Shown one piece after another: positions 47,194 to 62,136 of a DNA stretch of 64,000 nucleotides (its first letter is position 1; each line of letters starts with the position of its first letter). The notes under the pieces were generated by a model. That model did not search any database and was not told the DNA's origin. It saw only the letters and a program-made list of their open reading frames with translations. The DNA comes from Salinimicrobium profundisediminis (lineage in GTDB: Bacteria > Bacteroidota > Bacteroidia > Flavobacteriales > Flavobacteriaceae): NCBI RefSeq assembly GCF_026241755.1, contig NZ_JAPJDA010000009.1, positions 1 to 64,000 on the forward strand. Direction: 5' to 3'. The position numbers and the translations under genes are program-made.

Positions 47194-48132
47194 TTACTCC
47201 TTCACTACATCTATCCAGTACCTACGCGGTTTTTTAACGAACTTGTCATAGTCAGAATAAATATTGTCCCAGTCATCAGTCCCATTTAAATTAAAGGCAA
47301 ATGCATAATTCTCGATGGTTTTGGATAACCCGTTGCCCAGATCCTCTGTTCCCGGACCTTCAAAAGTACCAGTTGTGGTTCGACCATCTTCGAAGGTGAA
47401 GGTTATGGTTCCATTTGTGTAATTGCGGGACCATTCCGCCTGACCTTTAGGTATTTTTCTGTAAAAATGATTTACATCGGTTGTAGGTTCGGCCACAAAG
47501 GTAAAATCGGCATAGGTTTCGTCCTCCCCGGCATAATTAGTCACTGTTCCGTAGGTATTTCCTTCCTCAGTAATTCCCGAAAGCTCAAAAACAAGATAAT
47601 TGTCAAGCTCCTTTTCGGGACCATTCTCCGGCCATACCCATGGTTTAGAGGTCAAAGACAACACGCCTCCACCTCCATATTCTGGACCCGTCCCCCCGTA
47701 GAGTACTAGATCCTGAATTTGATAAGTACCTAGAATAGTTTCCTGAAACGGATTTACCTTAATAGTATACTCCCTGGTTTTACCTGTTGGAGAAGTAACG
47801 ACAAGGCTTGATGTATTGTTTTCATTTTCAAAATTAAGACTCTCACCTTCAACAACAGTGCTTTTCGCATTATAAGAAAGAACCAGTTGTTCAAGTGTAA
47901 TACTACTTAAATCAGGGACAGCATCTGCATTGATAGAAACCTCTATTTCACCTGTGTTCTCATCAGTTCTGGTTATAACTGGTTGTCCTATCTGGTTTTC
48001 AAATTTTAATGAAAGAATACTTCTTTCATTATTCCAGTTTCCTTCCTCAATATCTTCCCATGGATCAGTTTGACAACCTGTCAACGCTAAACTGACAAAG
48101 GCTGTTATTACTATGGCTATTTTCTTCATCAT
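47194..48132 (-). CDS. Surface glycan-binding lipoprotein (SusE/SGBP-like)
   Basis: 312 residues with lipobox LTGC (Cys19) followed by TDPWED. An N-terminal domain (about 35-130, ending TSPTGKTREYTIKVNPF) resembles DUF5018/Ig-like modules. The C-terminal beta-rich domain (about 132-312, aromatic-rich) may bind mannan. Its position directly after susD is where SGBPs normally occur. Confidence 0.7.
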   Translation of the reverse strand: MMKKIAIVITAFVSLALTGCQTDPWEDIEEGNWNNERSILSLKFENQIGQPVITRTDENTGEIEVSINADAVPDLSSITLEQLVLSYNAKSTVVEGESLNFENENNTSSLVVTSPTGKTREYTIKVNPFQETILGTYQIQDLVLYGGTGPEYGGGGVLSLTSKPWVWPENGPEKELDNYLVFELSGITEEGNTYGTVTNYAGEDETYADFTFVAEPTTDVNHFYRKIPKGQAEWSRNYTNGTITFTFEDGRTTTGTFEGPGTEDLGNGLSKTIENYAFAFNLNGTDDWDNIYSDYDKFVKKPRRYWIDVVKE

Positions 48133-48146
48133 CTTATTATTTAATA

Positions 48147-49640
48147 TTATAAATTCGGATTAAGATCTATTTCGGTTTGGGGAATTGGATAGAAATTTGC
48201 CTCGGTTTCTGATAGACCTGAAGCTTCAGGAACTACTTCTGTGACTCTGTTGAATCTCCTCAAATCAAACAACCTGTTTCCTTCCCAGGAAAGTTCCCAC
48301 TTCCTTTCATTCAGAATGGCTTCACGGAATTCGTTTAGCCCCATTCCAGATGGCAAATCTTCCAGTCCAGCTCTATTGCGAATAAAATTAACATATGAAT
48401 AAGCTTCGGCAGTTGGTCCGGCAGCTTCGGCATATACCAGGGCGATATCTGAAAAACGAAGTAGGAAAGGCTTAGTACTGGTTTTATCCCCAATAAAATC
48501 GGGATCAATATATTTCCGGGTAAAAGGATAAACAATAGCTCCCGGGTACGTTGCAACGACTTCCCCTGCTGCATTATAAACAGTATCTACAATTAATTCT
48601 GTTTTTCTTCTGTCATTATCAGCAAAACTATTGTAGAACTCTGTAGTAGTCTGAAAGACACTCCAACCATCATGTGTAGGCACCAGACTGCCATCGGGGT
48701 TTTCTAAGTAAACTGTAGCCCCATCTATATAAGGGATAAACAACTTTGAGATTTTTGAATAATCCCCCTCAATTTCTCCAGATCGATCCATTGACAAAAG
48801 AAAAATATTCTCTCTACCTAATGGTTGGTCGACGTCATAGATTTCAATCAGATCTTCCTCAAATCCGTACACAGACTGACCTTCCAATACTTCCTTGGCA
48901 CGTTGTGCAGCAAGATTATACATTTCGTCCACATCCTTATTCATTTCCGTGTAAAGAGAAACCCCATGTTCTTTTGAGGAGGCAATTTGTAGGTACACTT
49001 TGGAAAGTAGTGCCTGTGCAGCGACTTTATCTACTCTTCCCAACCTCTGCTCAAGCCCCATTAGACCTATCGCCTGTTGTAAATCTGATATGACAAGGTC
49101 ATACACTTCATCGAGATTGGCAGAAAGAGGGCTGGTAGTGCGGTCGATACTCTCCACAAGCTCAGTTTGCATAGGTACGTTTCCATACGCCTTCACTAAG
49201 TTAAAATAACTCCAGGCTCGTAAAAAGTACGCTTCACCCATTAATCGATCTTTGATCCCCTGGTCGAAATCCCCGTTAGGAATATTCTTTATTACTGCGT
49301 TAGAACGATTGATTATGATATAGCTATACTTAAAATAGTTTGATAGAATCCCATTTGTGCCAAAATTAGAGACTGTCCAATTGTGCAGATCCTGAACATC
49401 TGCACCTTCATCCGATTTTGGAAAGGCTTCATCTGTTGGAAGATCTCCAAGATAAAAATAAGCCCTGGAGTATTCTAAGTATGTTAAAGCATCATAGGCA
49501 TAATTTACTGCAGCATCGGCATCTTCTGCCGTTTGATAGAAATTGTCCTCAGAATAGAATCCATAAGGCTCTTCCTCCAATTCGCACGAGACAAGGCCGA
49601 GAGTAAAAAGAAAAAATAAATACTTATAAGTTGATTTCAT
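48147..49640 (-). CDS. susD: RagB/SusD-family outer-membrane lipoprotein
   Basis: 497 residues from the ATG at 49640, which gives a proper lipoprotein signal (MKSTYKYLFFLFTLGLVSC). The frame can be opened 23 codons earlier, but that part overlaps the susC end. SusD signatures include the TPR-like LMGEAYFLRAWSYFNLVKAY and the C-terminal NERKWELSWEGNRLFDLRRF. It forms the lid of the SusC channel. Confidence 0.93.
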   Translation of the reverse strand: MKSTYKYLFFLFTLGLVSCELEEEPYGFYSEDNFYQTAEDADAAVNYAYDALTYLEYSRAYFYLGDLPTDEAFPKSDEGADVQDLHNWTVSNFGTNGILSNYFKYSYIIINRSNAVIKNIPNGDFDQGIKDRLMGEAYFLRAWSYFNLVKAYGNVPMQTELVESIDRTTSPLSANLDEVYDLVISDLQQAIGLMGLEQRLGRVDKVAAQALLSKVYLQIASSKEHGVSLYTEMNKDVDEMYNLAAQRAKEVLEGQSVYGFEEDLIEIYDVDQPLGRENIFLLSMDRSGEIEGDYSKISKLFIPYIDGATVYLENPDGSLVPTHDGWSVFQTTTEFYNSFADNDRRKTELIVDTVYNAAGEVVATYPGAIVYPFTRKYIDPDFIGDKTSTKPFLLRFSDIALVYAEAAGPTAEAYSYVNFIRNRAGLEDLPSGMGLNEFREAILNERKWELSWEGNRLFDLRRFNRVTEVVPEASGLSETEANFYPIPQTEIDLNPNL

Positions 49641-49651
49641 CGTAATTTTTT

Positions 49652-52600
49652 TTAAAAAGTTAAATCCAGTCCTAAAGTCAATTGCCTCAGTCGAGGATAT
49701 CCACCCCAATAAATCCCATCACCTCCTACTTCAGGATCATAACCACTGAAGTCAGTAAAAGTATATAAGTTGTTACCGTTAATATACACACGTGCCGAAC
49801 TAGTGTTTTGTGTAGAAAGATTGAATGTATAACCAACAGTTACATTCTGGACCCGCACAAAAGAACCATCTTCCAGCCACCAGTCAGATAGGTTAGTCAG
49901 ACGTCCATCCCTGAGACGCGGATAAGCATTAGTTGGGTTATCAGGTGTCCATCGTAAAGGCTGATTGCTCGGCTGATTAAAGGCCTGTGTATTAAGAACA
50001 TCCTGCCCAAAAGCACCGTTAAGAAACAGGTTAAAATCAAAATTGGCATAATTCAAATCAAATCCAAGACTGGCATGAAAATCAGGATTCGGATCTCCAA
50101 TTATTGTACGGTCTTCAGTATTTATGATACCATCACCATTAATATCAACATATTTAAATTCTCCAGGCTGTGCCAGACTTCCATCCAAACCTGCTTCAAT
50201 TCCTTCCTGCAAGTTTTGAATAATACCGTCTGTTTTGTAACCGTAAAAGATATTAATTGGCTGACCGACAGCAAGAAGATTTGGATATTGACGGAATTGC
50301 TCTATACTATTTCCCCAATATTCGAATTGCATTCCAGTGTTTGGATCAATGGTTAAACCGGATTCAGCAGTATTTCCGAGACTTACCACTTCATTCTGAT
50401 TCCTTGAAAAAATTAAGGTTGTATTTAGAGTCAAATTATCAGATTGGATTAACCCTGCGTCCAGACTTAATTCAAAACCACGATTTTTAATTTCACCGTC
50501 GTTTACCCAAAGTCTGTCATACCCAGATGAAAGAGGCAAAATGCGCTCCCTTAGTAGATCACTAGTATGCTTCTGGTAGTAATCGAACGTAAGGTTCAAT
50601 CGCTCTTCAAAGAAGGAAAGATCTGCTCCTAAATTCCATTGAGATGTAGTTTCCCATTTTAGATCAGGATTGGGAATTCCTCCCCATAACGCTTCAATTC
50701 CTCCCTGACCCGCTCTTCCAACAATATACCCCGGACCAACAGCAGTAACCCAACTTCCATTGTTATAATAATTACTGACTCCATACCGGCTAAGGGTCTG
50801 ATAAGGACTTATCCCCTGATTTCCTGAAATTCCGTAGCTGGCCCGAAGCTTAAATTGATCAAGTTCATCAAAGTCAGCCATAAATTCTTCTTCGTGCACC
50901 TTCCAACTTAGTGCTCCCGAAGGAAAATAAGCCCACTTGTTATTTTCTCCAAATTTAGAAGATCCGTCTGCTCTGGCAGTAAAGGTTGCCAGATACCTGT
51001 CGTCATATCCATAGTTGATCCTAAAAATACCTGAAACCAGCTCGGTTTCTACACGACCATTCTGAACCTGATTTAATTCTGGATTACCGGCCTCCATGTT
51101 CTCATTCCCCAGGGTTTCATTCACGAAATCAAAAGCTCCAAGATTTGAGCTCCTTGAAGAATAATTCTCATATGTAAAACCGGCTGTTATCCCTAAATTG
51201 TGCTTTCCGAACCAGTCATTATAATTAGCAAAGGTTTCCGAAACGTAATTATGATCTTCCCAATTACGGATCCATCCCGCTCCATCATTAAAATCTCCGG
51301 TTTCCGTATATACATCTGGAAAATATTGATCATTAATAGATTTGCCATGCTTATAATTAAGCCTGCTAGTAAGCTTTAAAGGGGCTATAATCCTCCATTC
51401 TAAAGCAGCTGAAGTAATTAAGTCTAACATTTCGGTCTCATCCAATCTGTTTTCTGAGATAGCCAAAGGATGTGAGTAATCATTAGTTCCTATAAGATTG
51501 TATTCACCTTGGGAGTTGTAGACTGGAAAAATAGGATTCCTCCAATACGCTAAACCTCCATTGTACTCCCTCATTCCTTTCGAGAGTATATTAGATACCC
51601 TGATAGATAAATTGTCTAGAAGATCATGCTTCACCCTTAAGTTATATCCATATTTGCTATAGTCATCATCGATGTAGACCCCCATATCGGTATAGTAATT
51701 TGCACTTAGATTGAAACTAGTCTTTTCAGTTCCACTATTAACACTAATAGTAGTATTGTTGGACATGGGGTTATCACGAAATACAATATCATCCCACTCT
51801 GTAAAATGAGGCCATTCCCCTGACTGCAGTTCCCAAATAGAGGGATAGTAAACTCCTGTAGAATTCTCAGCTCCTATATAGAGTGGTTCGAAACCACCAT
51901 TCCTTCTTGATTCATTATTCAACTGAGCCATCAATAATGGATCTCGCCATAAATCAACCTTTGAAGTAAAAGCAGATACGGTAGATTGTTGCTGAATTCT
52001 CACCTGCGTTTTCCCTTCTTTGGCCATTTTAGTAGTTATAATAATTACTCCATTAGCACCTCTGGAACCATAAATTGCCGAAGCAGAAGCATCTTTCAAA
52101 ACATCTACACTTTGGATGTCCGACGGGTTAATTTGTTTTAAATTCCCAGCATCCCCAAGTGGAAATCCATCCACCACAATTAAAGGTGCATTGGAACCAC
52201 GCAAGGAGCTTCCCCCTCTAATACGAATCGTAGCCCCAGCTCCTGGATCCTGAGATGGAGTAGCGACCTGCAGACCTGCCACTCGCCCCTGAAGGACACG
52301 CTCTATCGAATTAGCAGGAATATCTTCAATTTCGCCCACATCAATTGTACTAACAGAGCCCGTTAGATCCTTTCTCCTGACTTCACCATAACCAACAACA
52401 ACTACCTCAGACAACTCTTGCATGTTATTCATAAGAGTAACAGTCATTTGCCCATCTCGAGGAATCGAAATCGTTTTAGTAATAAAACCTATACTAGAAA
52501 ACACAAGTTCTCCATCAGGGTTTTCCACCTCTAATGTGAAGTTTCCATCAAAATCGGTCACTGCACCGTTATCTGGAGTATTCTTTTCAAAAATATTTAC

Positions 52601-52723
52601 ACCCGGCAATGGCATTCCATCCTCAGAGACCACGGTACCACTCACAGACATTTGCGCAAGTACCGGTAGGCTGAAGACAAAGAAGCCAAGTAAGAGTGCA
52701 TATTTACTTAACACGTATTTCAT
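49652..52723 (-). CDS. susC: SusC/RagA TonB-dependent outer-membrane transporter
   Basis: 1023 residues: signal peptide (ends LPVLAQ), carboxypeptidase-regulatory-like domain (SVSGTVVSEDGMPLPGVNIF), TonB box region and plug (ELSEVVVVGYGEVRRKDLTG, then IRIRGGSSLRGSNAPLIVVD), and a 22-strand barrel to the terminal LGLDLTF. First gene of the mannan operon; no N-terminal FecR-interacting extension, so not controlled through anti-sigma signalling by that route. Confidence 0.95.
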   Translation of the reverse strand: MKYVLSKYALLLGFFVFSLPVLAQMSVSGTVVSEDGMPLPGVNIFEKNTPDNGAVTDFDGNFTLEVENPDGELVFSSIGFITKTISIPRDGQMTVTLMNNMQELSEVVVVGYGEVRRKDLTGSVSTIDVGEIEDIPANSIERVLQGRVAGLQVATPSQDPGAGATIRIRGGSSLRGSNAPLIVVDGFPLGDAGNLKQINPSDIQSVDVLKDASASAIYGSRGANGVIIITTKMAKEGKTQVRIQQQSTVSAFTSKVDLWRDPLLMAQLNNESRRNGGFEPLYIGAENSTGVYYPSIWELQSGEWPHFTEWDDIVFRDNPMSNNTTISVNSGTEKTSFNLSANYYTDMGVYIDDDYSKYGYNLRVKHDLLDNLSIRVSNILSKGMREYNGGLAYWRNPIFPVYNSQGEYNLIGTNDYSHPLAISENRLDETEMLDLITSAALEWRIIAPLKLTSRLNYKHGKSINDQYFPDVYTETGDFNDGAGWIRNWEDHNYVSETFANYNDWFGKHNLGITAGFTYENYSSRSSNLGAFDFVNETLGNENMEAGNPELNQVQNGRVETELVSGIFRINYGYDDRYLATFTARADGSSKFGENNKWAYFPSGALSWKVHEEEFMADFDELDQFKLRASYGISGNQGISPYQTLSRYGVSNYYNNGSWVTAVGPGYIVGRAGQGGIEALWGGIPNPDLKWETTSQWNLGADLSFFEERLNLTFDYYQKHTSDLLRERILPLSSGYDRLWVNDGEIKNRGFELSLDAGLIQSDNLTLNTTLIFSRNQNEVVSLGNTAESGLTIDPNTGMQFEYWGNSIEQFRQYPNLLAVGQPINIFYGYKTDGIIQNLQEGIEAGLDGSLAQPGEFKYVDINGDGIINTEDRTIIGDPNPDFHASLGFDLNYANFDFNLFLNGAFGQDVLNTQAFNQPSNQPLRWTPDNPTNAYPRLRDGRLTNLSDWWLEDGSFVRVQNVTVGYTFNLSTQNTSSARVYINGNNLYTFTDFSGYDPEVGGDGIYWGGYPRLRQLTLGLDLTF

Positions 52724-52964
52724 TTGGTATTAATTTTAGAAGGTTTGTAATATCATATTTCACAAAGTAATAACATTTACTTCTACCCACTTTTGTAAAT
52801 TATGCCTCATAATGATACTTTAATGAAAAAAATGAAGTCATTAAAGCCTATTTTACCTTGTGTTCTCTTCATTTTTATTTATTTACTTTATATTTGTGAC
52901 CATAATCATTTAGTATATAGAGGGAAAACGCTAATCCTAATAAAACTATAAAATTTGTATTATT
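52724..52964. promoter_or_regulatory. Divergent control region of the mannan locus with two inverted repeats
   Basis: This 241-bp region lies between susC and the araC-type gene. CTTTAATGA and TCATTAAAG (52818-52826 and 52838-52846) are perfect 9-bp arms, and ATTATG-CCT-CATAAT lies at 52799-52813. These are candidate regulator sites. I see no strong TAnnTTTG box for susC and no match to the candidate guide downstream of the Cas12f-like gene. Confidence 0.5.
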
Positions 52965-53831
52965 ATGAATGAACACAAACGGATAATGCGGGAATTAGTG
53001 CCTATTTCTGAAGATGATTTTTTCATCGTCCTTAACCATCGTAATGCTAAATTTGACTTCCCTTTGCACTTTCACCCAGAACTGGAGTTGAACCTGGTGC
53101 TAAATTCCTCCGGTAAACGAATTATTGGAGATTCAATTTTGGAATATCAAGGTTCTGATCTGGTACTAGTTGGAGCCAATACTCCCCACACCTGGATAGG
53201 AACAGAAGGCGAAGCTCATGTGGTAACAATCCAGTTCCACCAGCATTTCTTAGCACCGGAATCTCTAAACCGAAAGCTAATGCTATCTATTAAAGAATTG
53301 CTGGAACGTTCAAAGCGAGGAATATTATTTTCTGAAGAAACCATTGAAAAATTGAAGCCAAGAATTCTTGAGTTATCAGAAACACAAGATTTTGATTCCC
53401 TTCTGAAGTTTTTATCCATTCTTTACGATTTGTCTATCGCAAGAAATACTAAGATGCTTGCCTCTCATTCTTATGTGGATTATTATCGTATTTCAAAAAG
53501 CAGAAGAATTGAAAAGGTGAATAATTTCGTCCAAGAAAATCTTAATCAAAAAATCAATCTTAAGGATGTAGCTAACCTGATAAATATGTCAGAAACCGCC
53601 TTTAGCCATTTTTTTAGAAAATCTACAAATACCTCCTTTACTGACTACGTGAATGACTTGCGCCTGGGTCACGCAGCAAGACTCCTCACCGAAACAGAAC
53701 TGACTATAAATGAAATATGTTTCGATAGCGGATTTAATAATGTATCTAATTTTAACAGGACATTTAAAAGAAAAATTGGCTTTACTCCAACAGGATTTAG
53801 AGCACAACAAAAGCTTATTACCAAACATTAA
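52965..53831 (+). CDS. AraC-family transcriptional regulator of the mannan locus
   Basis: 288 residues: N-terminal cupin (FDFPLHFHPELELNLVLNS, HTWIGTEGEAHVVTIQFHQH) as sugar sensor, and two C-terminal HTHs (INLKDVANLINMSETAFSHF, LTINEICFDSGFNNVSNFNR, FKRKIGFTPTGFR). It lies divergent from susC, which suggests it activates the operon in response to mannose or manno-oligosaccharides. Inferred from context only. Confidence 0.9.
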   Translation: MNEHKRIMRELVPISEDDFFIVLNHRNAKFDFPLHFHPELELNLVLNSSGKRIIGDSILEYQGSDLVLVGANTPHTWIGTEGEAHVVTIQFHQHFLAPESLNRKLMLSIKELLERSKRGILFSEETIEKLKPRILELSETQDFDSLLKFLSILYDLSIARNTKMLASHSYVDYYRISKSRRIEKVNNFVQENLNQKINLKDVANLINMSETAFSHFFRKSTNTSFTDYVNDLRLGHAARLLTETELTINEICFDSGFNNVSNFNRTFKRKIGFTPTGFRAQQKLITKH

Positions 53832-54145
53832 TAGTCTCAGTGAGATTTAAAGACTTTTTTATTTCCTGATTTAGGCATCTATACCCAGCCCAACTGTTCA
53901 AGGTTGAATAAATCCACTCAAAAAAATCTACCTATATCATTCTTAAGCTATTCATTCCAAAATAGTATAAGTGTAGGTAGCAAACAATCACTGGGAAAAG
54001 TCTCGGGCTCTTTCAACAGAGCTTTCCTCATCTCTCGCTTGATCACCAAAAGATAGAAACTATAAAACTTTCTCGTGTTACTGCTTAGAAAGCGCACAGG
54101 AATTTAGGGAAAACCTTAAATTTTCATCCTCATAAACATGTAGTG
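53832..54145. other. Non-coding gap with a nested imperfect hairpin
   Basis: No gene is seen in 314 bp. At 53928-53980, CTACCTA/TAGGTAG encloses CTTA/TAAG and CTATT/AATAG, a nested stem with internal loops. It could be a structured RNA or a boundary between the mannan locus and the next accessory block. Confidence 0.4.
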
Positions 54146-55273
54146 ATGATAGAGCAAATTACCTTCTCCCGTCAGGAACTTTATTCTCTAGTTTGGGAAC
54201 ATCCTCTCTCCTATTTTACAAACAGGTATATGGTTTCATACCCGAGCTTTAAGAATATCTGCAAAGAAAATGATATTCCTTTACCTCCAGGAGGGTACTG
54301 GTCAAAAAAGAAATTTGGAAAAGAAGGTTTACAGCCTGAATATTCTAAATTAAAAAACGAGAAAGAAATCGTTCTTTACCTCCGCCTTGAGGGAGACAAT
54401 CGCGATTTCGGCTACCTAACCAAAATGGATAAAAAAATCCTGGAGATTGATGCAGATCCAAAGGTGAATTTGACTATTCCGGAAAAACTACCACCAAAAG
54501 TAGATCCGATTATAAAAGCAACAAAAAAATGGTTTAAGAAGGAAATTAAGGTTCCCGAGAAACTGGACTACTATGATCGATATTCTCCAGGTCCAATTCG
54601 CTGTTATGTGTCGGAAAAACAGTTGAAACGTTCTCTCATCATTCTTTCTGTTCTAGTAAAGAACATTAAGGCCCGGGGACATGATTTTACTTTTGGAAGA
54701 TACCATTCCTTTGTCAAGTTGTACGGAATTGAATTTGAATTAAGTATTTCAGAAAAAAAGAAAAGAATTAAGATTCAAGGAAAGTATGGAAGTGACTATA
54801 AATCTGAACCTACCGGTATGCTTTCCATTCAGGCTGGAGAAAATTTTTACAGTAAAGCCTGGAATGACGCTAAGACAATTAAACTTGATGGTAAACTTTC
54901 GACAATAATAGCATGGTTGGAAATTGAAGCTGAAGACGAGAGGCAACGTGAAATTAAAAGAAAAATTCGAGAGGAAGAGCGAAAGGAGCAAGAAAGGATC
55001 GAAAGGGAAAAGCAGGAACTTATTCAACAGGAATTGAAAGCTTTCAATGACCTCTACAAGAAGTCACAGCTATGGCACGAAGCTCAAAAATTGAGAAAAT
55101 ATCTAAGAAAATTGGAAGAGCAGTTGGAAAAGGATGATCAATTGACCCAAGAAAATATCGAAATGCTTCACTTTGGATTTCAAAAGGCTGATTGGCTGGA
55201 TCCCTTTACCACAAATGAAGATGATCTTTTTTCTAATTTAGACCCTTATAACCTCCTGAAAAAATTAATATAG
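54146..55273 (+). CDS. Hypothetical protein with N-terminal HTH-like motif and long coiled coil
   Basis: About 375 residues; the frame can also start at GTG three bases earlier. The N-terminus (FSRQELYSLVWEHPLSYFTN, then SYPSFKNICKENDIPLPPGG and YWSKKKFGK) matches a pattern I remember in proteins of unknown function on mobile elements. The C-terminal half (about 255-345) is a charged coiled coil. Middle part beta-rich. No function can be given. Confidence 0.72.
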   Translation: MIEQITFSRQELYSLVWEHPLSYFTNRYMVSYPSFKNICKENDIPLPPGGYWSKKKFGKEGLQPEYSKLKNEKEIVLYLRLEGDNRDFGYLTKMDKKILEIDADPKVNLTIPEKLPPKVDPIIKATKKWFKKEIKVPEKLDYYDRYSPGPIRCYVSEKQLKRSLIILSVLVKNIKARGHDFTFGRYHSFVKLYGIEFELSISEKKKRIKIQGKYGSDYKSEPTGMLSIQAGENFYSKAWNDAKTIKLDGKLSTIIAWLEIEAEDERQREIKRKIREEERKEQERIEREKQELIQQELKAFNDLYKKSQLWHEAQKLRKYLRKLEEQLEKDDQLTQENIEMLHFGFQKADWLDPFTTNEDDLFSNLDPYNLLKKLI

Positions 55274-55283
55274 AACTATCCCT

Positions 55284-55309
55284 AAACAACGAATACGTTG
55301 TTTTATTTA
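55284..55309 (+). terminator. Terminator after the coiled-coil protein gene
   Basis: AAACAACG-AATA-CGTTGTTT, a perfect 8-bp stem (55284-55303), is followed by TATTTAA on the plus strand. The minus-strand reading also ends in T-rich sequence weakly, so it may stop transcripts from both sides, including any guide RNA. Confidence 0.7.
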
Positions 55310-55439
55310 ATTTATTAGGACTCCATAAAATGGCCGCCTTAAAAATAAAATCTGACTCAATTGCGATCGCCGGATGGTGTAAATAATCCATTACACTGGC
55401 CCGGGAACAAACCAAAGACTATCGTTGGGTAAATATTTG

Positions 55440-55571
55440 TCTTCTTGTTTATGAACGGCCAGGCTTAATCAAAATAAGTGAGCCCACGCGTTGTATATGC
55501 TATATGCATTTAGTGAGTGTAATCCTATACCTCACCCTGTGGGTGTACAAGCACCCTCATGACTAATTCAA
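55440..55571 (-). ncRNA. Candidate guide RNA region downstream of the Cas12f-like gene
   Basis: The 298 bp after the Cas12f-like stop codon have no gene. On the minus strand they begin with consecutive hairpins: GGGTG-CTTGTA-CACCC (alternatively CACCC-ACA-GGGTG), GTGAGGTA/TAC-A-CTCAC, an ATAT-AGC-ATAT hairpin and GGCT/AGCC (about 55455-55480). TnpB and Cas12f guide RNAs are encoded in this position, scaffold first and guide at the 3' end. The guide would then start near 55450 or further left. No second repeat copy is visible, and I found no target in the window. Confidence 0.4.
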
Positions 55572-56669
55572 CTAATCTGTTATAACTTCAATACCTGCTT
55601 TTTCAGCCTTATATTTAATCTTGGTTATAAGGTCGTAATAACTCCAGTTTCGTAGTACGAATTCTTCTTCCTTAGCTATGCCAGCTTTGTCCTCCTGATT
55701 CATTAAAATTAAAGTTCCCGCCTGGTGCTTAATACAGAAATCGATTAACCTCCTGCTATAAACATGGATGCGATTGGATACATAATTACTTTCAGTATTG
55801 TGGAATCTATTCACCGCCTTAAGTTTTCTCTTTATTCCCTTTCCTGATTTAGAAAATGTTGCTCCTTTTTGTGCTCTTTTTCGGGACGCTTGAATAGCTA
55901 ATCTTCTGTACAAAAATTCTTCTCTGCTACCAATGGTAAGTCTTTCGGTTCCGGTTTTAACTACTATGGGATATTCAAGAGACATAGAAGCTTCTGCAAC
56001 CACTTGCGGCTTAAGAGCATGTTGCTCTTTTTTTATCTCAAATACAGGAAGCCAAAAAATCTTTCCATCCTTTAATTTTATGTGTGATGTACAAAGCCTT
56101 ATTTCTCCTTTTACAGCTTGCTCTAAAAGGTGGCGTTTGTCTGTGTAATCCTTCCCGAGATAAGTTTTTAGAGGAAGGCTAAATAGCCGAAAACAAAAAG
56201 CTCTTCTTTCTTCGTCGTATGAAAAACCACTGATTCCTTCCATATCGAATGGAAAGGCCATATCTCTTCTAAAGTTCCTTAAAGAGCTTTCTCCACTCCA
56301 GTATTTCATTTTGTCTTTATTGAAAGAGCTGTACAAAGACTGCTTCAGATTAGATAAAATGTTAGTGGGAATTTCACCTTTGAACCGGCTGGACACTGCT
56401 CGATAGGTCGTATGGATCCGTGAGCATTGCAAAATCCCTAATTCATCTTTTTTTTCGTCTACCAGTTTATATTGAACTCTTTCGGTTAAATAGAGAAAAT
56501 CTTTGATCATTTCCTGAACGTACAAATGGGAAACCATCATGTTGGCTGCTCTAAAAGCCCTGTTCTGCCATTGGTATAGTTTATCCAGTGCCTCCTTCCT
56601 TTCTGCCTGAGTTGGAAGGTCCACCAGTAGCTGTATTTTCCGGGTAAGTTTAAGAGTGGAGTTTTTCAT
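55572..56669 (-). CDS. Nuclease-dead Cas12f/TnpB-like protein
   Basis: 365 residues resembling miniature Cas12f/TnpB proteins: the REC-like N-terminal half, WED-like segment, and the Cas12f core KSGKGIKRKLKAVNRFHNTE, VSNRIHVYSRRLIDFCIKH and AGTLILMNQED. The RuvC-I segment reads AEASMSLEYP where a GVDLGIKYP-like motif is expected, so the Asp is replaced (S228). The RuvC-II Glu is replaced (M323/N324). The protein stops after YKAEKAGIEVITD, before zinc ribbon and RuvC-III. No frameshifted remnant of these parts follows. It therefore cannot cut but may bind RNA and DNA. It lies one base after the sigma gene. Confidence 0.78.
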   Translation of the reverse strand: MKNSTLKLTRKIQLLVDLPTQAERKEALDKLYQWQNRAFRAANMMVSHLYVQEMIKDFLYLTERVQYKLVDEKKDELGILQCSRIHTTYRAVSSRFKGEIPTNILSNLKQSLYSSFNKDKMKYWSGESSLRNFRRDMAFPFDMEGISGFSYDEERRAFCFRLFSLPLKTYLGKDYTDKRHLLEQAVKGEIRLCTSHIKLKDGKIFWLPVFEIKKEQHALKPQVVAEASMSLEYPIVVKTGTERLTIGSREEFLYRRLAIQASRKRAQKGATFSKSGKGIKRKLKAVNRFHNTESNYVSNRIHVYSRRLIDFCIKHQAGTLILMNQEDKAGIAKEEEFVLRNWSYYDLITKIKYKAEKAGIEVITD

Positions 56670-56670
56670 G

Positions 56671-57456
56671 TTAAGCAGATTGTAACTGTTCTTGATGCTT
56701 TTCCTCCAGAAATTTGTACGCAGCTATAAAAATTTTATGGACTTCCTTCTGGGAGAGGCTCAACTCAGTAGCAATAGCAGCAAATGAATAATTCTTCTCA
56801 CTACGCAACTGCAACACTTTTTCCTGTTCTTCGGTCATGGAACCCTCAACCTTTATTGTTGTAGCAGGTTGATTTTTAGCTTCAAGATCAGTTCCCTGAT
56901 AAATAAAATTTTTAATCTCCTGGATGGCTTTCTTTACTTCTATACTAACTTCCTTAATGCTGATTCCCATAGCATCGGCAATAGCTTTATATTGAAACCC
57001 GTATTTAAGGCAGAGTTCTATCAGGTGTTTTCTCTTATCACTCAATAGTGGCAATACGCTATTGATTCTGTTAAGGGCCTTTTGATCTGCTTGCTGGTCT
57101 GATAGGTGCTCATCTTCTTTCTGTGGGTCATAACCATGCATATATTTCTGATAGTCTTCATAATTTTCCAACCTGTTGATGTTCCTGTAAAAGTCATTTT
57201 TGGGCCGACAATAGTAGTAGGTACATTCCCGTTTCATCACATAACGAAGAAAAAAGTAAATATGTTCCGGCCGTTCAATATCTTCCCTTTTCTCCCACAG
57301 TTTCAAGAAAGTATCTTGAAGGATGGTTTCAATGACAAATTCATCGCTAATCAGTTGCTTTCCCACCCAGAAGATCCTGCGGTGGTATTTGGAATAGATA
57401 AACTCTAAAGCATCAGGATGTCCTTGTTTTAATAGTTCAAAATTATCATGTGACAT
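56671..57456 (-). CDS. ECF-type sigma factor with extra C-terminal HTH
   Basis: 261 residues. Region 2 (about 14-85, FIYSKYHRRIFWVGKQLI, DTFLKLWEKREDIERPEH) and region 4 (about 132-187, LLSDKRKHLIELCLKYGFQY, IADAMGISIKEVSIEVKKA) match ECF sigma factors. A second HTH (about 207-254, MTEEQEKVLQLRSEKNYSFA, IATELSLSQKEVHKIF) is unusual for the family. No anti-sigma gene is near; instead the Cas12f-like gene follows, suggesting recruitment by that protein. Leader hairpin at 57472-57487. Confidence 0.82.
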   Translation of the reverse strand: MSHDNFELLKQGHPDALEFIYSKYHRRIFWVGKQLISDEFVIETILQDTFLKLWEKREDIERPEHIYFFLRYVMKRECTYYYCRPKNDFYRNINRLENYEDYQKYMHGYDPQKEDEHLSDQQADQKALNRINSVLPLLSDKRKHLIELCLKYGFQYKAIADAMGISIKEVSIEVKKAIQEIKNFIYQGTDLEAKNQPATTIKVEGSMTEEQEKVLQLRSEKNYSFAAIATELSLSQKEVHKIFIAAYKFLEEKHQEQLQSA

Positions 57457-57471
57457 AGGAGATATATTTGA

Positions 57472-57487
57472 ACCTGAGCTCTCAGGT
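57472..57487. promoter_or_regulatory. Inverted repeat in the sigma gene leader
   Basis: ACCTGAG-CT-CTCAGGT is a perfect 7-bp stem with a 2-base spacer, 16 bp upstream of the sigma start codon. It may be an operator for a nearby HTH protein or an RNA hairpin limiting translation. Confidence 0.5.
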
Positions 57488-57504
57488 CGGGTTATATTAT
57501 TAAT

Positions 57505-57684
57505 TTATAGGTCAGACTTTAAAGCCTTTTCTACCTGCTCCAGTTTCTTTTTATATTCTGCAATTAATTCATCTGCATATAGGGGAGTTCTATCTCCACT
57601 GAGACAATATCTTATGTAACGAGGAGTCACCTTATATTTACAGGCAAGGGCTTTTACTACCTCCGTGTTATAAGTTTTCTTCAT
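57505..57684 (-). CDS. 59-aa HTH-like protein upstream of the sigma gene
   Basis: A short gene reading MKKTYNTEVVKALACKYKVT, PRYIRYCLSGDRTPLYADEL and IAEYKKKLEQVEKALKSDL. The first part fits a small HTH (KALACKYKVTPRYIRYCL), followed by a helix. It is 48 bp upstream of the sigma gene on the same strand and divergent from the CI-like gene, so it may belong to the sigma-Cas12f operon or form a Cro-like partner to the CI-like repressor. Confidence 0.6.
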   Translation of the reverse strand: MKKTYNTEVVKALACKYKVTPRYIRYCLSGDRTPLYADELIAEYKKKLEQVEKALKSDL

Positions 57685-57777
57685 AAATTACGTAAGTTTG
57701 CCTGTTCATTTATTTGTTCCTTTCACCGGAACAAAATCAAATATAGTTGATAATTTTCAACTAATCAAAAAACTTTT

Positions 57778-57793
57778 GAAGATAATTATCTTC
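57778..57793. promoter_or_regulatory. 16-bp palindrome overlapping the CI-like gene leader
   Basis: GAAGATAATTATCTTC is perfectly self-complementary and ends 3 bp before the CI-like ATG. A GTTCC-N7-GGAAC repeat lies further upstream. These are candidate operators in the divergent promoter region between the 59-aa HTH gene and the CI-like gene. Confidence 0.6.
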
Positions 57794-57796
57794 TAT

Positions 57797-58198
57797 ATGA
57801 GAAATATTTTACAAGTTTTCACTGATATCGCCCAGAATGAAGGGATAACTATTACCAATTTAGAAAAGAAAATTGGTGCAAGTAAGGGTGTCCTTTCCCG
57901 TGCAATAAGTAAAGGCACAGATATTCAGGCAAAATGGCTAATTGCACTAGTTGATAATTATCCCCTATATAGTGCTGAGTGGATACTAACCGGTACTGGT
58001 CCGATGCTTCAAAGAGATTCCGCTGAATCTATTAGTAAAGAAACCGATCCAGTTGTTCTTCGTGAAAAATTAATTAATCTCCAAAATCAATTGGATGCTC
58101 TTGAAAAAGCAAATAATGCTTTGGAAGACGCCAATGAATCTCTAAAAGAAACTAAATTGATACTGCAAAAACGGATTGCGGAACTCGAAGGTAAATAA
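57797..58198 (+). CDS. CI-like HTH repressor with coiled-coil tail
   Basis: 133 residues from the ATG at 57797; an upstream GTG-type opening adds 33 unlikely residues. N-terminal HTH (ITNLEKKIGASKGVLSRAI), then YSAEWILTGTGPML, a motif common in Bacteroidota phage-type repressors, and a C-terminal coiled coil (LREKLINLQNQLDALEKANN, ALEDANESLKETKLILQ). Probably autoregulated through the palindrome at 57778. The following 58199-58406 holds no gene I can support. Confidence 0.78.
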   Translation: MRNILQVFTDIAQNEGITITNLEKKIGASKGVLSRAISKGTDIQAKWLIALVDNYPLYSAEWILTGTGPMLQRDSAESISKETDPVVLREKLINLQNQLDALEKANNALEDANESLKETKLILQKRIAELEGK

Positions 58199-58406
58199 CA
58201 GATTGAAAACTTTTTGATAGGTCAGAAGATAGACCTGTGACAAAAGCCGATCTAAAGGATGCTGGAGATAGATTTGAGAGAATAGCTTGACCTGAAATGG
58301 CATTTCCGCCTTTAAGGCCAATACTCAAAAGTCACCCAACTAGCAAAAATGAAGAGAATGGCATTAATTGAAATCTGCCTGTAATAAACATTGAGTTATC
58401 ATTTAA

Positions 58407-59627
58407 TCATAAAGTCGTGAACCGATACCAATTCAAAATTTCTCTTCCAATGTTGGGTTTTAATTGCCTGTGTTCAAGAATATTTAATCTCCCAACAGCA
58501 CACTGATGTTCCCGTTGTCTAAAATTTTTGAAATCCGGAGGTACTGAAGCTTCCGAAGGATAGAGCAGCATGGCACGAACCGACTTCCAGTAATCATTAT
58601 AAACATACATCTGCCGCAGGTCCTGGGTGGAAGGATTGAAATTCTGAATATTCTTCCATTTAGTATCGATGACAAAATACTCGTCATCCTTTTTCACCAC
58701 GATATCAGGGCGAATGGTTATCCCCTGCCAGAATTCTCTTGACTGCTGCCCGTAAACCTCCACATTTTCAAGTGAAGCAGCCTCCTGTTTTAATTTTACC
58801 AGCACATATTCTTCCCATAAGTTATTCATATCAAAGAGAAGTGCGAGCATCTTTTCATCGCCTGCAGAAATATTGGGTGCATAATTCAAAATGATGAGAC
58901 GGGCGATTTCCAAAGCAGTAGCATAAGGAGCTGTTTTTCTACCTTTTTTGACTCTCAAAAAAGTGGTCTTATCTACTTTGATCTCTTTCACCTCAGGAAA
59001 ATCCAGGCGGACAGATTTACACATGGAATACAGGTAAGTACCTTTCGTAAAATCTTCTATAATATATAAAGCTTTAGAAAGTATCCGGTGAATGAGGTGA
59101 TCCTTGTCGTAGATCTGGTGTGTAGTATAAAAACGTTCCTTATGGATCAGGTTCTTCCTAAGGTGGCCGGCAAACTCCAGTTTTCCTTTAAGTGTCTTTA
59201 CATTCTTCGTTTGCTTGTAGTACTGCTTAATTAGGCCGTTATGGATCAATAGCTCCAACTCATTGAGAAACCATTCGAAATATATATCGAGGAGGTGAAT
59301 GTTTTGCCGGGAGACATTCGCGTTTCCCACTTTTTGAACCTGTAGCTTCCGGGTGGTCTTTAGCATCTCGATGAGAACCGACTGCCATAGCTCTTCATTG
59401 GTTTCAGCAGCATCGATCTTGGGAAGGATCTCGACCGTCAAACCATCTACCTGGATCACCCCAACAAAGTTTTTGAATTTTATCCCGTTGTACCGGAGAT
59501 CAAAATACATATCATTATGCAGGGCATTCAGTTTGGAAAAAGCCTTTAAATGCTTTTGCTGAAACTGCTCCCCTACCTGCAGCAATTCATGCTCAAAAAC
59601 CTTTATGATCTTATTCCCCTGCCTCAT
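58407..59627 (-). CDS. mcrC: McrC-type nuclease subunit of an McrBC restriction system
   Basis: 406 residues: the N-terminal McrC domain (LRYNGIKFKNFVGVIQVDGL, VEILPKID) and a C-terminal PD-(D/E)xK nuclease (GITIRPDIVVKKDDEYFVID then TKWK, i.e. D...DxK). With McrB it cuts DNA carrying modified bases, mostly of phage origin. It overlaps mcrB by 17 bp. Confidence 0.88.
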   Translation of the reverse strand: MRQGNKIIKVFEHELLQVGEQFQQKHLKAFSKLNALHNDMYFDLRYNGIKFKNFVGVIQVDGLTVEILPKIDAAETNEELWQSVLIEMLKTTRKLQVQKVGNANVSRQNIHLLDIYFEWFLNELELLIHNGLIKQYYKQTKNVKTLKGKLEFAGHLRKNLIHKERFYTTHQIYDKDHLIHRILSKALYIIEDFTKGTYLYSMCKSVRLDFPEVKEIKVDKTTFLRVKKGRKTAPYATALEIARLIILNYAPNISAGDEKMLALLFDMNNLWEEYVLVKLKQEAASLENVEVYGQQSREFWQGITIRPDIVVKKDDEYFVIDTKWKNIQNFNPSTQDLRQMYVYNDYWKSVRAMLLYPSEASVPPDFKNFRQREHQCAVGRLNILEHRQLKPNIGREILNWYRFTTL

Positions 59628-62136
59628 CTTCCCGGTTGAGTAAGATTCGGACAGCTGATTCTATATCCTCCACTTCTTTAAGATGATAAGAAGGTAGAAC
59701 TTCCGGAAGATCCAATTTTGGAAATTTCGCGAAGCTAACTTTACCCTCTTTTCGCTCCACAAATCCGGCACCGAGTATAAGAGCAACTTTTTCGTAGTCA
59801 TGATAAAAATACTCCTGCAGTAAGGGAATGATCTTATTCTCAAACGCCTCCTGAAGTGCTTCGGTATCTCCGCTATTGGTCTTAATGAAATAGGAATGCC
59901 CAATGGTATGGTCACGATCCAGAAGGGCCTCTATTCTTTCGTTGATCGTACTTAATAACTCCTCTAGGTTGAACCTTTTAAATTCAATATTTCTCAGCAG
60001 TTCGGGGCGAGGCATGATTTCTTCAAAGACAAAGCGCCTTCTCAAAGCTGTATCCAGGGCTTCAACTGAACGATCGGCGGTGTTCATGGTACCAATGATA
60101 TGAAGGTTTGGCGGCACTCCTAATTCAGTTTTTGAATACGGCAATTTTGCCCGTAGTTCATTTTCTTCTCCTAGCCTCTTATCATCTTCTATAAGGGTGA
60201 TGAGTTCGCCAAAAATAGACGAAACATTACCGCGGTTTATTTCATCTATAAAAAGAGCATAAGGATTTTCCCTGTCAGCATCTGCTTTTAGACACATTTT
60301 TTTAAAAATTCCATCTTCTATACGATACGAAACATTGTTTTCTTCCTCATCTAAATTGGGTTTGATTCCCTCAATAAAATCTTCGTAGCTAAAGGATTGA
60401 TGAAAAGTCACAAATTCATAGTTCTTTATAAATTTATCTGGATTAGGATGGTAATTTTTTACCTCTTCCAAAAGAGTATAAGCTTCGGGGTAAAACTGCT
60501 CTAAAAGATCTTCCTTTACTTCCCAATATGAATTTTGATCTTTATAAAAAATTGGATTCGAACTCCTGTCCGCGACCTTTACATACTCACATTCGGGATC
60601 AGTATAATGCTGTAAATAGCCCCAAATTGTGGCATTAGGATTTTTACTATTCGAGAGCTTTGTTTTTATCAGCAAAAGCTCATGAGAAACAATATCAGTT
60701 ACTTTTGATTTCTTAATATCCAATAAAACTATAGCAGCAACCTTCCACCATTTTAAATCTGAAACTATGTTTTCCAGGTATTGCTCTCTGCTCAAGGAAG
60801 TTTCCTGAACAGTGAATTCTTTGAAATAGCTATCCTGTAATTGAAACGTTTTTCCGGTTCCGGGAGGTCCGTAGAGGATCCGGTTTAATTTTTCGCTATA
60901 ATCCATTCTTGCCGCTGACTTATCTCCTGACATAATTCCCAGGAGTCGTTCGTAATAAGTATTATAATTTGGATCCTCTGTTTTGTACGGAGTAATATCG
61001 GTAAGGGTTTTAGTCACGATATCAAACTGAGTATTCCAGGATCCTTTTTGTCTCCAATCCACTTTTCGGCATTTTTGAAAGTATGGACGCTGTGCATCGT
61101 AAAAGTAATCTGATGTTACCACACCATAGCCAAGTAGGGTTCGCTTTCCTTTTTTAACAATGATAACATCTCCGTTTTTTACCTTTTTCAAAAAGTCATC
61201 ACAAGCAGTTGCATCGTTTTTTTTAGAAGAATCGGAATTCTCCCATTCCTGAAGTTTCTCAATGATTTCTTCCTTTGTGGAATATTTTTGGAGATCTCCA
61301 AGTCGATCCCAGCCTATGGCTATTATTCCTTCTGAATAGAATTCTTCCCAGTGCTTAGCCTGTTTTCCTGGAGAATATAACCAATATTGCCTATGAGAAA
61401 TCTTGACAGACATCCTTTTGATTTTATTATATTCCTCTTCGGTAGCCGTGAAATTAGTACCCTGGTTCCCTGCTTTAAAGTGCTGAAATTCGGGCAGTTC
61501 TTTAATGTCAGCCCACAGCACGGGATCATCTGCCAGATAGTCGATAACTTTGATTTTTACCCGTTCTTCTTCTTTTGAAGCTGAAACAGGACCTTTATAA
61601 TACTGTTTCTCATAACTTTCTTCCTCGATATCTCCCACCTCAGAAACAACGTCGGCCAACGCATAACACCCTGCTTTATCTCCCGTTTGCCAAAGAATAA
61701 CCTTGTCACCGGGTTTTATTCTGTCTTTATGAGCTGCAATTTTCCAGGATTTAAGATGTCCTGCACGTAAGGCTCTTTCAATATCATATATTTCAGGACT
61801 TCCCTGGAAGATCCAATAGTTGGGCTGGTCTAATGACTTGGAACTAAATTTTTCCTCAATAAATCTGAGATAGTTCTCCTTTCCTAAAAGTGCTCGCGGG
61901 CGGTGATGGCTCACTCCGGCGCTATAGCTATTGAAGGCTCCATCTTTCCGATATAATTCTTTTTTTAGATAGCTGAGGATTTCCTTGTAATTTGACTCCT
62001 GTACGTCAAAAATATTTCGGTCAAATCTCTTATTTGATTCTTCCAAATCCTGAGAAACAGTATTTTCATTTAAGGATGAATATCTCCCGTTAGCATTCTT
62101 AAAAAACCACTGTATAAATTCTTCTTTAAGACTCAT
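59611..62136 (-). CDS. mcrB: McrB-type AAA GTPase with two EVE-like reader domains
   Basis: 841 residues. About 105-240 is an EVE-like domain (NYWIFQGSPEIYDIERALRA, IKPGDKVILWQTGDKAG), and about 249-370 a second one (QYWLYSPGKQAKHWEEFYSE, GDVIIVKKGKRTLLGYG). The AAA module has Walker A GPPGTGKT at 423-430, FVTFHQSFSYEDFIEGIKP, Walker B ALFIDEINRGN and the McrB motif GTMNTADRS. EVE domains bind modified bases, so the pair probably reads 5-methyl-, hydroxymethyl- or similar cytosines. A helical insert between Walker A and EDFIEG is usual for this group. Confidence 0.88.
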   Translation of the reverse strand: MSLKEEFIQWFFKNANGRYSSLNENTVSQDLEESNKRFDRNIFDVQESNYKEILSYLKKELYRKDGAFNSYSAGVSHHRPRALLGKENYLRFIEEKFSSKSLDQPNYWIFQGSPEIYDIERALRAGHLKSWKIAAHKDRIKPGDKVILWQTGDKAGCYALADVVSEVGDIEEESYEKQYYKGPVSASKEEERVKIKVIDYLADDPVLWADIKELPEFQHFKAGNQGTNFTATEEEYNKIKRMSVKISHRQYWLYSPGKQAKHWEEFYSEGIIAIGWDRLGDLQKYSTKEEIIEKLQEWENSDSSKKNDATACDDFLKKVKNGDVIIVKKGKRTLLGYGVVTSDYFYDAQRPYFQKCRKVDWRQKGSWNTQFDIVTKTLTDITPYKTEDPNYNTYYERLLGIMSGDKSAARMDYSEKLNRILYGPPGTGKTFQLQDSYFKEFTVQETSLSREQYLENIVSDLKWWKVAAIVLLDIKKSKVTDIVSHELLLIKTKLSNSKNPNATIWGYLQHYTDPECEYVKVADRSSNPIFYKDQNSYWEVKEDLLEQFYPEAYTLLEEVKNYHPNPDKFIKNYEFVTFHQSFSYEDFIEGIKPNLDEEENNVSYRIEDGIFKKMCLKADADRENPYALFIDEINRGNVSSIFGELITLIEDDKRLGEENELRAKLPYSKTELGVPPNLHIIGTMNTADRSVEALDTALRRRFVFEEIMPRPELLRNIEFKRFNLEELLSTINERIEALLDRDHTIGHSYFIKTNSGDTEALQEAFENKIIPLLQEYFYHDYEKVALILGAGFVERKEGKVSFAKFPKLDLPEVLPSYHLKEVEDIESAVRILLNREDEAGE

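Follow-up and report, generated by a model that had tools for sequence, protein, structure and literature searches.

The window analysed is a stretch of 64,000 nucleotides from Salinimicrobium profundisediminis (contig NZ_JAPJDA010000009.1). On its minus strand an ECF-type sigma gene (57456 to 56671) is followed, after the single base 56670, by a gene for a Cas12f-like protein (56669 to 55572), the arrangement which a first-pass annotation had described with the strand unstated. The features of the locus, from the upstream end of the operon to its downstream end, are as follows.

57797–58198, plus strand: divergent small gene with an ATG start (the ORF list has a TTG start at 57698)
57738–57772, minus strand: Bacteroidota-type promoter candidate over a dyad (TAnnTTTG as TATATTTG at 57745–57738; TTTG near 57769)
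57505–57684, minus strand: small ORF of 59 aa, helix-turn-helix (HTH)-like by eye
56671–57456, minus strand: ECF-type sigma gene (261 aa); its C-terminus carries another region-4-like HTH
55572–56669, minus strand: dcas12f, a nuclease-dead Cas12f homologue, 365 aa, without RuvC-I Asp and RuvC-II Glu and stopping before the zinc ribbon
55490–55558, minus strand: guide-RNA scaffold, 69 nt, three hairpins, beginning 13 nt past the dcas12f stop
55474–55489, minus strand: first 16 nt of the guide, GCGTGGGCTCACTTAT; its 3' end is undefined by sequence

The stretch 57738–57772 was read as a promoter candidate by its motif, TAnnTTTG being of the Bacteroidota type. In this genome the operon perhaps begins with the 59-aa ORF. 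The divergent gene occupies the position of a small regulator-like ORF in relatives; because the family search gave no HTH family over cut-off for it, a regulator role is assigned by position only.

The sigma protein matched TIGR02937 (sigma70-ECF) with 72.2 bits (cut-off 42.9) and Pfam Sigma70_r4 with 38.6 bits, above cut-off, and region 2 scored 23.2, slightly below the cut-off of 24; the Pfam spans were residues 206–242 for Sigma70_r4, this being the second region-4-like HTH, and 130–178 for Sigma70_r4_2. The best PDB relatives of the 365-aa protein were Cas12f/TnpB, in agreement with the group membership proposed in the first-pass annotation, and NCBIfam guided_TnpB was matched at E 3.6e-20 with 72.6 bits, below the cut-off of 100. 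When the protein was aligned to Cas12f 9nzo, Ser228 stood at the place of the RuvC-I Asp of the family and Met323/Asn324 at that of the RuvC-II Glu. For the homologues, 51 of 53 rows were aligned, the broken copies L050 and L053 being left out: Asp at 228 and Glu at 323 or 324 each occurred in 0/51, and Asp at 324 in 2/51. The loss of both residues and of the zinc ribbon, read earlier from this one sequence, thus holds for the protein, which lacks the RuvC Asp, RuvC Glu and zinc ribbon of an active TnpB or Cas12f nuclease and differs in this from active Cas12f (9nzo, 9nzr). Homologues were 364–366 aa long in 49 of the 51 cases, and the short form is therefore the normal form of the family. Truncation and lost catalytic residues would also be expected of a decayed transposon TnpB adjoining an unrelated sigma gene; this reading was rejected on conservation of length, replaced residues and gene order, the frame being open and the guide RNA conserved as well, and we consider it next to incredible.

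Within the 198 genomes searched, dCas12f was present in 11, own genome included, with 15 matches, one of which is a 52-aa remnant; a second collection, of named genomes, contained 38 dcas12f loci in 33 genomes. The check for homologous pairs with conserved order, proposed in the first-pass annotation, was run on 53 locus rows (including two duplicated places, L002/L020 and L012/L026), and the sigma gene ended 1–2 nt before dcas12f in 45 of them. The remaining eight rows either begin too near the gene (L031b, L045), have a broken dcas12f frame (L050, L053), have longer gaps (L009, L015, L043) or have no detectable sigma gene (L010). The presence in 11 genomes, the 38 loci of the second collection and this spacing together argue that the pair is not due to chance. 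At L010 (G001 C35) the dCas12f is divergent (45% identity) and no sigma gene was detected in the 1.4 kb upstream; this is possibly a sigma-less variant of the system.

Both proteins have solved relatives. Sigma residues 2–261 aligned with PDB chain 9n9q_C ('RpoE') at E 9.6e-89, and the chain 'Nuclease-deactivated Cas12f' of the same entry matched dCas12f over nearly its full length at E 2.2e-183; the RNA polymerase beta chain nearest to the beta of the own genome is also in 9n9q. By their titles, 9n9c is a dCas12f-gRNA complex and 9n9m a dCas12f-gRNA-DNA complex (partial R-loop). The likeness to 9n9q thus covers both proteins at the same lengths (365 and 261 aa) with RNA polymerase beta in the entry, and the only difference from the PDB systems seen in this comparison of proteins is sequence divergence (65–66% identity in structural alignment, among the matches listed by Foldseek). 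Bacteroidota dCas12f-sigma systems were reportedly described by Hoffmann et al. 2025 (PDB 9n9c, 9n9m, 9n9o, 9n9q), in agreement with the reports of nuclease-dead Cas12f-sigma systems to which the first-pass annotation refers. The operon has the parts of such a system, namely a dead Cas12f, a linked homologous ECF sigma and an adjacent conserved guide RNA. Among the literature matches listed, nothing was found on dCas12f-sigma systems or on the leader element described below, and the part of PMC12857756 that was available contains a single passing mention of Cas12f.

No debris of the missing nuclease parts had been seen downstream of dcas12f in the first-pass annotation, correctly; what follows the stop is the guide RNA, which had been overlooked. 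The scaffold, with the sequence blocks GAGGGTGCTTGTACACCC...GGTGAGGT...ACACTCACTAAATGC...GCATATACAAC, was found 3' of dcas12f at 51/53 loci, the misses being L010 (contig end, with 31 nt downstream only) and L011 (the 52-aa remnant). In an alignment of 62 distinct copies, made after removal of identical copies and of two pattern matches that were degenerate or false, the three hairpins had 99.1% of cells paired, with 13 two-sided changes vs 2.5 ± 1.5 in shuffles; the fold energy by itself was weak (z −1.6). The scaffold model matched 11/198 genomes, 10 of them with dcas12f; the exceptions were an orphan copy in G006 (C8 939517–939585; L093, L220), a genome without dcas12f and without leader element, and G001, which has no copy and whose contig ends there. 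The sequence after the scaffold was mostly [G]GCGTGGGCTC[A/T]CTTAT and was very different in L005, L015, L031, L043 and single copies elsewhere; such variability is expected of a guide. Three consecutive guide-RNA copies, with partly or wholly different guides, lie 3' of dcas12f in L005, L023, L035 and L049; displaced copies were seen in L043 (16155–16220, 5 kb downstream of dcas12f) and L015 (1392–1457, between sigma and dcas12f), and a decayed orphan copy (E 2.7e-4) in the own genome (C15 17119–17181; L100), on the same contig as one leader element. Searches with Rfam covariance models gave no family match for the guide-RNA stretches (window; L054, L055 and L057 at E up to 1). No regularly spaced CRISPR array lies beside the operon in window positions 53000–60000, which contain only irregular two- and three-copy repeats of 67–85%; in contrast to active Cas12f (9nzo, 9nzr), the guide is here a single RNA beside the gene.

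When the own genome was searched with the 15-nt guide core at up to two mismatches, four places were found, the guide itself and three others, and the reversed-pattern control gave 0. Of the three non-self sites, one on contig C6 and one on C68 each precede a TonB-dependent receptor gene by about 500 nt, and the third lies within the C68 receptor gene (54357–54371; L056 1501–1515; L206), with 22 identical bases; guide matches are thus found upstream of genes, as in a dCas12f-sigma system, at 2/3 sites. The copy inside the gene is an exact 22 nt of the target including the preceding bases and encodes PGVGSLI, where paralogues differ. Against the two upstream targets the own guide has one mismatch, at position 11; a third target, on C15, has an insertion. 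Downstream of the C6 target (L205 3–2537) the receptor gene is split into two open frames, which is a broken gene or an assembly error. Across the 198 genomes the pattern GCGTGGGCTCNCTTA was found at 32 sites in 19 genomes, and the reversed pattern at 0. Among the loci examined, the listed sites all lie inside one conserved element with a G before each; this holds for the sites other than guide RNAs, the coding match L061, which lacks the preceding G, and the copy within the receptor gene. A G preceding the target site is expected of a dCas12f-sigma system; because this G is also part of the terminator helix of the leader, its presence does not count as separate evidence for a target motif. 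For the odd guides of G110, the match to the own element was 4/16, and the genome search gave 4 matches, two of which are the guides themselves, vs 7 in the reversed control.

The leader element is conserved and about 145 nt long; its model was built from 29 guide-matching sites, five of the seeds being from genomes of the named loci. The own genome has three elements (C6, C68, C15), each before a receptor gene with Plug and CarbopepD_reg_2 domains. Elements were present in 37/198 genomes, in 10/11 of those with dcas12f vs 27/187 of those without (Fisher p 1.6e-7, related genomes not being independent), and in 32/33 genomes of the 38 named loci, in one of these via a weak match only. In G031 (L011, L212) a 52-aa dcas12f remnant still has the guide RNA adjoining and three leader elements are present in the genome, which is perhaps a loss in progress. 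Among 100 distinct elements, 47 are followed within 1.8 kb by a susC-like gene, 27 by a sigma gene and 23 by neither, and three have too little sequence; the sigma genes behind elements are mostly those of the sigma-dcas12f system itself. At 18 of the 38 named dcas12f loci the sigma gene has an element a short distance upstream (L041 and L045 have too little sequence to judge). By the element-model search of the window, none lies before the own sigma gene, and autoregulation via a leader element was rejected for this genome. The window's own SusCD locus (49652–52723) was likewise rejected as a target, since element model and pattern search found neither leader element nor guide core there. An opposite-strand ORF of at least 70 aa starts no more than 330 nt upstream of the element in 95/99 cases, a raw count; many of these ORFs are HTH-regulator-like by eye, and of two checked against HTH families one matched below cut-off and the other not at all. 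Past the element and before the receptor start, L204–L206 contain some 400 nt of additional leader, again similar and including another hairpin (AAGCCTTCC...GGAAGGCTT in L205).

A profile search (A4) of the 27 element-bearing genomes without dcas12f found no hidden distant dCas12f, its matches being only the known G001 and G031, and an undetected dCas12f was rejected as the explanation of these genomes. A known RNA family was also rejected as the identity of the element, there being no relevant Rfam match: L054, L055 and L057, searched at E up to 1, gave U6, mir-194 and NRON off the element. Since the element occurs in 27/187 genomes without dCas12f, with the guide-matching strand kept in half, it has a function of its own.

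Two folds of the leader are supported by covariation in an alignment of 88 of the 100 elements (12 were omitted to shorten it). The first, a long helix, had 98.5% of cells paired and 204 two-sided changes, vs 65 ± 6 in shuffled and at most 37 in slid alignments. The second, a 5' stem crossing the long helix together with a 3' terminator helix of GGCGTG[G/A]GCTC with GAGTT[C/T]CACGCC, mostly followed by T's, had 97.2% paired and 41 two-sided changes, vs 7 ± 2.5 shuffled and at most 16 slid. Strand GGCGTGGGCTC is common to the apical part of the long helix and the terminator of the second fold, and since both folds use it they are mutually exclusive; the guide sequence is this shared strand. Energy folding, which covered the C6 and C68 elements, gave the long helix for C6 (z −3.2) and the terminator for C68 (z −4.0); the different states may be an effect of the energy model and are no proof of switching. 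The element resembles riboswitch and attenuator leaders in its two mutually exclusive covarying folds, of which one closes with a GC helix that is usually followed by a T run; it differs from these in having no relevant Rfam match or known ligand, and in that the strand common to both folds also serves as the site for an RNA-guided factor.

A guide identical to a strand that is paired in either of the covarying folds, in elements of which C6 and C68 take one state each by energy, could also act on RNA. The guide RNA would then pair with the leader transcript, at the 3' arm of the terminator (GAGTTCCACGCC) or at the 5' arm of the leader (GCTCACG), and switch it, with dCas12f as an RNA chaperone and sigma acting elsewhere. 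We judge this improbable: entry 9n9m is the structure of a relative in complex with guide RNA and DNA as a partial R-loop, 9n9q contains dCas12f together with sigma and the beta chain of RNA polymerase, and the guides unlike the element (L005, L015, L031, L043) fit DNA targeting of other sites better.

The coupling of guide and element was analysed in 37 genomes (41 minus four without an element extractable by pattern), and the guide matched the own element at 14/16 positions or more in 26 of them; such match counts are partly circular, because the element model was seeded with guide-found sites. In the elements of relatives, the guide-matching strand was kept (at least 14/16) in 20/25 with dCas12f vs 20/39 without (p 0.033), counted over 64 element matches at E up to 1e-10 and without G104; within the own family the figures were 9/10 vs 16/28 (p 0.12). 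Eight weaker element matches in named dCas12f genomes gave 1/8 at this level. This recount replaced a comparison in which strand conservation had looked equal with and without dCas12f (68/77 vs 18/23), and which included only 23 of the roughly 50 matches in dCas12f-less genomes, 14 of the 23 found via the guide sequence. The leader RNA thus accounts for at least part of the conservation, with some extra where dCas12f is present. Genome-specific co-variation of guide and element was absent (permutation p 0.87), and guide-target co-variation was rejected as proof of targeting, the private pair of G209, GGCGTGTCATCC, being an anecdote.

Taken from sequence and homology, the locus is very probably a dCas12f-sigma RNA-guided transcription operon acting at leader elements before receptor genes. 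RNA-guided initiation of transcription is a recent and rare mechanism. The first-pass annotation had proposed a system of this kind, and the 9n9q homology, the titles of 9n9c and 9n9m, and a guide RNA with matches upstream of receptor genes speak for it; the missing anti-sigma gene, also adduced there, fits the reading but proves little. As judged by homology, dCas12f would bind the guide RNA encoded just past its gene, the guide would open the leader DNA where it matches the shared strand, and the attached sigma would bring RNA polymerase to the opened site, where the R-loop, in place of a promoter, would determine the start point. The leader element is probably read from its own upstream promoter and can fold into the long helix or the terminator. 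Initiation at the guide site, within or past the element and with the transcription start downstream of the 5' arm of the terminator, would lead into the receptor genes and bypass both promoter control and terminator. Nutrient-uptake genes would, on this sequence evidence, appear to be switched on at sites named by the guide.

Repression would be the opposite outcome. TldR, a nuclease-dead TnpB, represses (PMC13418256). Like the present protein it has a dead RuvC and belongs to the TnpB/Cas12f superfamily, as a transcription factor guided by RNA. With such precedent dCas12f could block the leader, sigma being a mere neighbour with promoters of its own, and at the one guide match inside a receptor gene a block is easily imagined. 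The present dCas12f differs from TldR in having sigma as its usual partner, with order and spacing kept in most locus rows, and sigma, dCas12f and polymerase occur together in the solved entry 9n9q; repression of this kind is accordingly very unlikely.

Activation by the dCas12f-sigma pair at DNA is thus preferred, and a more specific form of it is put forward tentatively, at somewhat less than even chances: the regulon would be defined by an uncatalogued two-fold leader RNA, the guide would be a captured copy of the shared strand, transcription would start past the terminator, and pairing of this guide with the transcribed leader would be possible as well. As a copy of the shared strand, one guide would address every operon with the leader, that is, the receptors and, in relatives, sigma-dcas12f. 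The kind of system is already known from solved structures; new here, as judged from the literature matches listed, are the leader targets and a guide that copies the shared strand of a two-fold leader. If true, this would be a promoter-independent, RNA-addressed bypass of riboregulation and a new regulatory logic. The natural targets become concrete as the element of 37 of the 198 genomes, with about half of the 100 distinct elements before receptor genes and about a quarter before sigma genes; the purpose of natural dCas12f-sigma systems, perhaps control of outer-membrane receptor expression, can now be tested, as can the way in which guide RNA and two-fold leader RNA use one sequence.

Elsewhere in the window, a McrBC-like restriction pair lies at 58407–62136 on the minus strand (NCBIfam matches below cut-off), a SusCD receptor locus with an AraC-type regulator in divergent orientation, in which no guide target was found, at 47194–53831, and a Flavo-1 RNA (Rfam RF01705, 58.5 bits) at 1234–1315 on the plus strand.
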